Positions 8,185 to 10,169 of a stretch of 64,000 nt of DNA are shown piece by piece. Position 1 is the first letter of the stretch. Each line of letters starts with the position of its first letter. The stretch is from Acidobacteriaceae bacterium (GTDB lineage Bacteria > Acidobacteriota > Terriglobia > Terriglobales > Acidobacteriaceae). The stretch is taken from positions 22,966-86,965 of the forward strand of contig JASHRF010000053.1 of assembly GCA_030037545.1 (NCBI GenBank), written 5' to 3'. The notes below the pieces were generated by a model. The model worked only from the letters and a program-made list of their open reading frames with translations, did not search any database and was not told where the DNA came from. Position numbers and translations under genes: made by a program.

Positions 8185-8466
8185 ATGAGCAGTTATCCCC
8201 CACCCGGCCCCAGTATTCCCGGTTTCGGCCAACGCATTGAAGAGGCCATCGAGCTGATGGAGATGGAACTGCGTCACGCCGTGGCCTATGTGAATGACGC
8301 CGTGGTGCCGCAGGTGCGGCGGGAGTCCATCTCGGCCATGCGCAGTGTGGCCGACACGCTGCACAACCTGGCCGACTGCTTCGAGGCGTCGGGGCGCCCG
8401 GCGGGTGAGCCCGCCCGCCCGGCGTCTGGCCCGCCTCAGAACCCGCCAAAGGATCCACGCACTTGA
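8185..8466 (+). CDS. Hypothetical protein
   Basis: 93 aa ORF overlapping the rlpA start by 4 nt; translational coupling likely. Confidence 0.55.
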   Translation: MSSYPPPGPSIPGFGQRIEEAIELMEMELRHAVAYVNDAVVPQVRRESISAMRSVADTLHNLADCFEASGRPAGEPARPASGPPQNPPKDPRT

Positions 8467-9272
8467 ATCTTCTCCGCTCTGGTCCGAGGCGCGGTATGCG
8501 CGCGGCTAGCCTGGCGGGGATGGGCATGTTGTTGCTATTGACGAGTGGATGCCGCCAACGCAGCCAGGTGGCGCAGTTGCCGCCGCAGCAACTGCCGCCG
8601 CCTGCTTCTGTTCCTCTGCCGGCAACTCCTGCTCCGGCAACCGAGCCTCCGGTGCGCATTCCCATCACGCCGGCTCCGCCCGGCGGCATCAGCGCCGGGG
8701 ATCTCGACTTTATCGCCACGCATCGGCCCATCGCCAGTCAGACCGGCTACGCCAGCTGGTATTCGGCGCCGTACAAGGGGCGCAAGGCCGCGAATGGCGA
8801 GGTCTTCGACGATCACGCTATGACGGCTGCGCATCGCACCCTGCCCATGGGGTCGCTGATCGTGGTCACCAATCTCGAAACCGGGCAGTCAGGCGCGATG
8901 CGCATCACCGACCGCGGACCGTTTGTGGAGGGGCGCATTCTGGACTTGACCATGGCTTCGGCAAAGGCTACCGGCATCTACCGTGCGGGAATGGCCAAGG
9001 TGCGCATGGATGTGTACGAGACGCCCAAGCCCATTGGCACGGGCGGACGCTGGTGCGTGCAGATAGGCGCCTATCACAGTGAGCACGCGGCGCTGCGCAT
9101 GAAGGCCAGGCTGGAGCGAGAGTATCCCTCCTCGAACGTGATCGAATTTCCCGGCGAGAACAGCTACTGGGTGCGCATCCGTCCGCAGGGTGACGATCGC
9201 ACCTCGGCCGAGTACATCGCACGTCATACGCATCCCAGCGAAGGCGACGCGTTCCTGACGCGGCTGGATTGA
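8463..9272 (+). CDS. rlpA: RlpA-like septal ring lytic transglycosylase / lipoprotein with SPOR domain
   Basis: GYASWYSAPYKGRKAANGEVFDDHAMTAAHRTLPMGSLIVVTNLETGQSGAMRITDRGPF plus C-terminal WCVQIGAYHSEHAAL...YWVRIRP (SPOR). Confidence 0.9.
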   Translation: MNLLRSGPRRGMRAASLAGMGMLLLLTSGCRQRSQVAQLPPQQLPPPASVPLPATPAPATEPPVRIPITPAPPGGISAGDLDFIATHRPIASQTGYASWYSAPYKGRKAANGEVFDDHAMTAAHRTLPMGSLIVVTNLETGQSGAMRITDRGPFVEGRILDLTMASAKATGIYRAGMAKVRMDVYETPKPIGTGGRWCVQIGAYHSEHAALRMKARLEREYPSSNVIEFPGENSYWVRIRPQGDDRTSAEYIARHTHPSEGDAFLTRLD

Positions 9273-9374: not shown

Positions 9375-9645
9375 CTAGGGCCTGTTAACTCTACTGGGGT
9401 GGCGGCGACAGGAGCCGATTTTCCGAGTTCCAGGAGCGAGGAGCGACGCCTACCGGGTGTCTGCTAGCGAGGAGCGACAACGAAATTGGGAAAATCGGCC
9501 CTGTCCCTTGGGGTTGCGGCCAAAATCGGGTCATACTTCGTTGTCGTCCTAGGCGGTGGGCCCGCCACAGCCGTCGTCCTCCGCCTCGCCTGACCCGATT
9601 TTGGCTGGCAACGCCATCCACCCCACTAGCGTTAACAGGCCCTAG
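9375..9645. repeat. 271 bp structured intergenic element: terminal inverted repeat enclosing two long hairpins
   Basis: Outer IR ctagggcctgttaac (9375-9389) / gttaacaggccctag (9631-9645), extended to 28 bp with 2 mismatches; hairpin A 9407-9424/9489-9505; hairpin B 9519-9533/9591-9605 (15 bp perfect). Confidence 0.9.
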
Positions 9646-10169
9646 CACTTGGGATGGGGGTTTTTGAATGGAAGCTCGATGGGCAGCCAGTCGGAGAGGC
9701 GGTGGGCATTGATCTGGTCGTCGGTGGGGTTGGCGGGAATGGAAGAGCGGGTAAGGGCGACAGCGATCTTGATCTTCCCCTTGACGCAGTAGGCGGCGAG
9801 CATTGCGGAAAGGTCCGTGCTGGCCTTATTCACATAATCGGCGGGAAGCGTGCCCTGCGCGCCTGGGATATCGATCGCGCCCATGGTCATCTCGTCCATG
9901 ACCGGCCCCTGGCTCTTGGCGCCCGAAATATCGTATTGGACTACGAGATCGGCGCGGGTCTCCAACATTTCAGGATTGGCCGCGTATTGGATGGGCGGAA
10001 TGGTGAGGCCTGTGGGGTTTGGCTTGGCGGGCGGCGCGCCAAACGCGAGATGGTAGGGAGCGCCCTGCCATTTGGGCGTGACAGGAATGCCGGAACCCGG
10101 GTTACCGGCGCTTCCGCACCCGGCCAGCAAGAACATGGCTGCAAAGGCAATAATCGTGCTTTTTCTCAC
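9642..10169 (-). CDS. Predicted lipoprotein, hypothetical
   Basis: MRKSTIIAFAAMFLLAGCGSAGNPG lipobox; stop codon lies within the end of the 9375-9645 element. Confidence 0.65.
   Translation of the reverse strand: MRKSTIIAFAAMFLLAGCGSAGNPGSGIPVTPKWQGAPYHLAFGAPPAKPNPTGLTIPPIQYAANPEMLETRADLVVQYDISGAKSQGPVMDEMTMGAIDIPGAQGTLPADYVNKASTDLSAMLAAYCVKGKIKIAVALTRSSIPANPTDDQINAHRLSDWLPIELPFKNPHPKC

Follow-up and report, generated by a model that had tools for sequence, protein, structure and literature searches.

Described families of small mobile repeats

MITEs are a known kind of mobile repeat, recognised by their ends (PMC10969869, PMC2229807). Most bacterial MITEs have been described by these, with the folded transcripts generally regarded as by-products. 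ERIC, Correia/NEMIS and RUP are small, bounded by terminal inverted repeats (TIRs), end in TA, occur in many copies, give strongly folded transcripts and are moved in trans; each is a single stem-loop formed by pairing of the 5' and 3' ends, and is armless (PMC2229807). CIR repeats of Caulobacter consist of two long hairpin arms and a linker, but are only partly MITE-like, and their mobility is unclear (PMC2229807). REP, BIME and REPIN sequences contain an inverted pair of hairpins, and are characterised by RAYT-type mobility with no TIR-bounded duplication. Finally, the IS427 group of the IS5 family comprises autonomous insertion sequences, which in Paracoccus are 832-865 bp long and mostly generate 2-bp duplications (PMC3281130).

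The window analysed here is a stretch of 64,000 nucleotides from an Acidobacteriaceae bacterium, and the 271-bp piece at 9375-9645 of it represents a single copy of a mobile DNA element, small and transposase-dependent, that occurs in soil Acidobacteria. It resembles ERIC, Correia/NEMIS and RUP in size, TIRs, TA ends and copy number, and probably in strongly folded transcripts and movement in trans, but not in the single stem-loop: its TIR stem holds two conserved, covarying arms with a putative tandem G.A helix, and it is often inserted in stop codons, which also sets it apart from these families. Its likely partner is of IS5 type, whereas that of RUP is of IS630 type. The two-arm layout with a linker is that of CIR repeats, from which the element differs in having TIRs, a TA duplication and empty sites. 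With the IS427 group it shares a 2-bp duplication, short TIRs and, in one subclass, a TIR match to a ~905-bp DUF4096 element, but it has no transposase, and its noncoding structured core is missing from the IS. The inverted hairpin pair recalls REP, BIME and REPIN sequences; in contrast to those, the element has DDE-type ends, a TA duplication and modules of ~100 nt with a predicted non-canonical helix. No description of the element was found in the literature searched, and its module may represent a structured motif not described before. The features of the window copy and its neighbours are as follows.

8463..9272, plus strand: upstream 269-aa ORF (ORF table), conserved across the genus
9376..9377, no strand: left TA target-site duplication, from the empty sites of two other copies (TTAA against filled T-TA-GGG...CCC-TA)
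9378..9642, plus strand: element proper (MITE), 265 bp, of a multi-copy family with defined ends
9378..9402, plus strand: left terminal inverted repeat, 5' strand of the outer stem; 25 double compensated changes on the tree
9407..9424, plus strand: arm A stem, 5' strand, covarying
9431..9446, plus strand: predicted tandem G.A helix of arm A, 5' purine strand; G.A columns and interleaved Watson-Crick columns with GC/CG swaps in 34 representatives
9447..9464, plus strand: variable cap hairpin of arm A; pairing kept, sequences differ (GCATAC/GTCTGC, GGATAC/GTATCC)
9465..9480, plus strand: predicted tandem G.A helix of arm A, 3' purine strand, where the direct repeat recurs; from the same 34-representative columns
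9489..9505, plus strand: arm A stem, 3' strand, covarying
9506..9518, plus strand: linker, mini hairpin CCC-NNN-GGG with a loop that is TTC in the majority of copies and elsewhere GAA
9519..9533, plus strand: arm B stem, left strand; 17 double compensated changes
9534..9590, minus strand: arm B interior, the same predicted G.A-helix module (arm-A model matches on the opposite strand in relatives; tandem G.A pattern)
9591..9605, plus strand: arm B stem, right strand, covarying
9619..9642, plus strand: right terminal inverted repeat, 3' strand of the covarying outer stem
9643..9644, no strand: right TA target-site duplication, completed by element base 9642 to the TAG at which the minus-strand gene stops
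9642..10169, minus strand: 175-aa lipoprotein-like ORF (ORF table), its stop TAG built by the element border; matches to homologues in relatives start at that stop codon

The product of the 269-aa ORF is, by its motif, putatively RlpA/SPOR-like.

Borders, insertion sites and copies

The element is almost certainly a non-autonomous transposon (MITE). By its sequence and the ORF table it has terminal inverted repeats and lacks a transposase gene; neither a promoter nor an intrinsic terminator was detected in it. A preliminary description of this DNA had located a terminal repeat at 9375-9389 and 9631-9645. The repeat is indeed there and its pairing is real, but the CTAG at its ends lies partly outside the element, as can be seen from empty orthologous sites at two loci. 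One filled site (L042) reads CACT-TA-GGGCC...GGCCC-TA-GTCGG where genome G004 has the empty CACTTAATTGG; a locus common to G004 and G010 is filled, T-TA-GGG...CCC-TA-AGCC, where the relative G016 has TTAAGCC. The target-site duplication is TA, which sets the limits of the window copy at 9378-9642, and the empty loci support the mobility that had been suspected.

At both of these loci the TA is part of a TAA stop codon, and, since TA and the first G of the element make TAG, the reading frame still terminates. Such repair is frequent: 138 borders were examined, 54 of them with an adjoining ORF of at least 120 codons, and an in-frame border TAG was found at 38 of the 54, with 18 expected (p = 3e-8). 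The orientation of neighbouring genes is unskewed (29 co-directional, 16 convergent, 12 divergent). An assignment of convergent genes at one empty-site locus was rejected; the two genes there share a TAATG, the stop of one overlapping the start of the other.

Five near-full copies and two fragments (about 6-7 copies) were found in the genome of the window itself. In a set of 61 genomes (this one, 36 of the same genus and 24 from outside it), BLASTN matches occur in 20, every one within the genus, so the family is multi-copy and the possibility of a single-copy sequence can be set aside. A pattern scan of public genomes matched peat and soil Acidobacteriaceae MAGs (Terracidiphilus/Silvibacterium-like), as well as three further records taken to be chance hits. 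Among the relatives, genomes assembled into one contig carry 4-12 copies. In genome G015, TIR ends number in the dozens and many lie at the end of a contig, a pattern suggestive of a recent burst.

Candidate partner transposase

An IS with the exact TIR of the window copy (GGGCCTGTTMACAC) was not found in eight draft genomes and one complete genome, nor was a transposase found for the unpaired TIR ends in G188, and we therefore infer the partner from related elements. The TIR subclass TAGAGCCTGTTATKAACTTT is found on elements that have both arms as well (L050, L089, L116-L118, L122) and on L139, a ~905-bp insertion sequence from the same genus, which encodes a DUF4096 (IS5-type) transposase and lacks the arms and the structured core. 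The 2-bp TA duplication fits the norm of the IS427 group (PMC3281130). These likenesses point to IS5-family (IS427-like, DUF4096) transposases as the enzymes that probably move the element in trans.

Two further observations concern IS5-type ends. At about position 886 of L186 (contig C213 of G015) an IS5-type end abuts a TIR1-like end at the same TA, as though either had landed in the other's border. A second MITE, AT-rich and about 143 bp long (TIR TAGAGCCTGTTATTAACTTT), has the IS5-type TIR in common and no structured core; in the genome of the window it occupies loci L123, L125, L126, L128, L130 and L131.

Fold and covariation

The 271 bases fold into an outer stem, arm A, a short linker hairpin and arm B. 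The MFE as DNA is -83.7 kcal/mol, compared to -48.4 +/- 3.9 in shuffled sequences (z -9.1; 0 of 200 as low), and as RNA it is -153.7 compared to -105.5 (z -8.5). The closed stem enclosing two hairpin arms, drawn in the preliminary description from repeats that were all found, is thus far beyond chance.

Across 77 copies, the 88 predicted pairs are Watson-Crick in 91% of their non-gap cells, and this falls to 23-37% when partners are slid by 1-4 columns. Double compensated changes mapped on the tree are seen in the outer stem (25), arm A (19) and arm B (17), and a separate alignment of 32 copies has a compensated change in 47 of 86 pairs. When pairs were tested one by one for covariation against a strict null that preserves the tree, 3 of about 38,000 were significant, so that the case for covariation leans on the pooled event counts. 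Recurrence in a multi-copy family, compensation and register-specific pairing agree with the earlier claim of selection for structure. Against Rfam, neither the window copy nor any of seven divergent loci gave a significant match.

Two arms, one module

The purine-rich "loop" of arm A is predicted to be a conserved non-canonical helix, in which three tandem G·A pairs alternate with covarying Watson-Crick pairs below a hairpin cap. The register, derived over 34 representatives each less than 85% identical, is G.A, WC, WC, [A.G G.A], WC, [A.G G.A], WC, WC, [A.G G.A], WC. Its G.A columns are kept at 71-94% and the interleaved Watson-Crick (WC) columns at 97-100%, with GC/CG/TA swaps; three of the latter have the compositions GC30/CG3/TA1, GC27/CG6/GG1 and GC34. 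Of the ten registers tested, it alone yields eight G.A columns, a covarying WC column, or more than one WC column at 90% or higher. RNAalifold, which allows standard pairs only, recovers these interleaved pairs independently in both arms. The 13-bp direct repeat AGCGAGGAGCGAC at 9435-9447 and 9466-9478, correctly reported before, would then represent the two strands of the G.A helix. In the window copy a G replaces C at a covarying S position, leaving one G.G mismatch.

When relatives are searched with a covariance model of arm A, several show a match in arm B on the opposite strand (L311, for example, with 45.5 bits, E 7e-7), and the minus strand of arm B has a similar G.A pattern, less regular than that of arm A. 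Arm B is an inverted homologue of arm A, and each strand of the element therefore carries one purine (folding) arm on its 5' side and one pyrimidine arm. Complementarity between the arms had been taken for an alternative fold; the match TTCGTTGTCGTC exists, beginning at 9537, one base earlier than reported, and it is explained by the inverted homology.

Restriction to the genus, suggested by BLASTN alone, was overturned by the same model, which detects the arm-A module in 28 of 399 genomes of the class, spread over several families and 17 of 135 genera, with up to 29 and 21 copies per genome; the weakest matches have E about 1e-4, and these E-values are rough. Many of the distant elements inspected bear different TIRs (GGGYGTGTCATCAAACTC, GGGTGTATCGAC, AGTGTYCTGTCTCAGAAATAG, AGCAGCCCGTGGTGAAA), likewise beside TA or CTAG, and the purine-rich interior is the part kept across elements with different TIRs. 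We lean, with modest confidence, towards regarding the arms as an undescribed hairpin module with triple tandem G.A, which persists throughout the class on MITEs of changing TIRs, in inverted pairs or singly, and which serves the element or the host, under selection, as a single strand of RNA or DNA. Here it is the core and not the ends that is kept across families, including non-Watson-Crick pairs beyond what simple palindrome maintenance gives, which raises the testable question of why certain MITEs bear selected folds.

Why the fold may be kept

Structure-breaking changes number 232 on tip branches and 76 on internal ones, as opposed to 198 and 177 in unpaired columns (odds ratio 2.7, p = 1e-9, counted by parsimony on one tree). 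Most of them being terminal, copies decay after insertion and the propagating lineages retain the fold. Counted over both arms, each on its purine strand, G.T events exceed A.C events, 57 to 27 (p = 0.0014), in a split by strand chosen after the unsplit whole-element test had come out flat (81 to 66, p = 0.25). G.T is also tolerated in ssDNA. The preliminary description saw the fold as selected either as ssDNA in transposition or as structured RNA; selection and mobility both stand, with folding of a specific strand in each arm now indicated in addition. The TA duplication in stop codons, the likely IS5-type partner, the inverted modules, the predicted G.A helix and its spread through the class go beyond that description. 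Selection on the modules as single strands is quite probable, and the whole is rather likely to be a MITE whose two modules, inverted relative to each other, fold as single strands and are selected in propagating lineages, presumably at the level of RNA.

The element inserts at TA, often within stop codons, where TA and its first G restore a TAG, and an IS5-family transposase would act in trans. Each module would work once its purine strand is single-stranded, most likely in RNA at the transcript 3' end of the gene upstream of the insertion; given an inverted pair, the 5'-proximal hairpin would be the working one in either landing orientation. Stop-codon repair and an mRNA end that is protected or insulated would make insertions harmless, and so the element could spread. 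The inverted pair and the rebuilt stop codon suggest an orientation-independent design that spares the host gene. The 3'-end role itself is tentative, with a somewhat less than even chance of being correct: it is inapplicable to the fifth or so of copies that lie between divergent genes, and is weakened by the lack of orientation bias and of a terminator.

The modules might instead serve as ssDNA, with hairpins on the replicating or excised strand bound by transposase or a host factor, boosting transposition or targeting. Purging of structure-breaking changes in propagating lineages and their tolerance in resident copies is what a fold serving mobility would show, the unbiased orientation of neighbours agrees with it, and tandem G.A pairs can form in DNA too. 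We nevertheless consider it unlikely, as IS5-type DDE transposases work on double-stranded ends, the IS relative is armless, and solo-TIR and one-armed elements occur, though these may be deletion derivatives.

Stem columns change about as fast as unpaired ones (3.40 changes per column compared to 3.67), so that sequence is free and pairing is kept. The same rates could be produced by passive palindromes, in which template switching during replication and arm-to-arm conversion would maintain pairing without selection; the linker loops TTC and GAA resemble loop inversions, and precise arm deletions are known (arm B in L102; both arms, cleanly, in L174, where a 59-bp remnant at 1526-1584 on contig C451 of G015 has the outer stem only). 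Under such correction G.A would give way to Watson-Crick pairing, whereas it is the tandem G.A pairs that are best kept across families; the wobble bias tracks the purine strand of each arm, and broken pairs are depleted on internal branches, which makes a purely passive origin improbable.

A stand-alone regulatory RNA gene, or a riboswitch of the adjoining gene, would account for the strong fold and covariation, but is highly improbable for a multi-copy, promoterless sequence that is polymorphic for presence, has no Rfam match and is contradicted by empty sites. Slighter still is the chance of a REPIN/BIME-type element moved by RAYT (Y1) and not by a DDE enzyme, for although two inverted hairpins are as in BIMEs (PMC2817692) and a separate 38-bp hairpin family behaves REP-like, the long TIRs, the TA duplication and TIRs in common with a DUF4096 transposase element speak against it.

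Solo arms and nested hairpins

Arm A alone is found at L183. Another solo arm A, with no recognisable TIRs (L030, 1494-1596, in G005), lies about 50 bp downstream of an RNase P RNA gene (Rfam RF00010). The separate hairpin family has members of 38-43 bp, of the form CCACCCCA-stem-GGGGACCCCGG with variable stems, in 3 to 60+ copies per genome of the genus; examples are G000:C26:15965-16002, C68:27182-27219 and C76:4168-4206. These hairpins also nest within MITE arms (L115, L116, L118) and form tandem arrays (L115).
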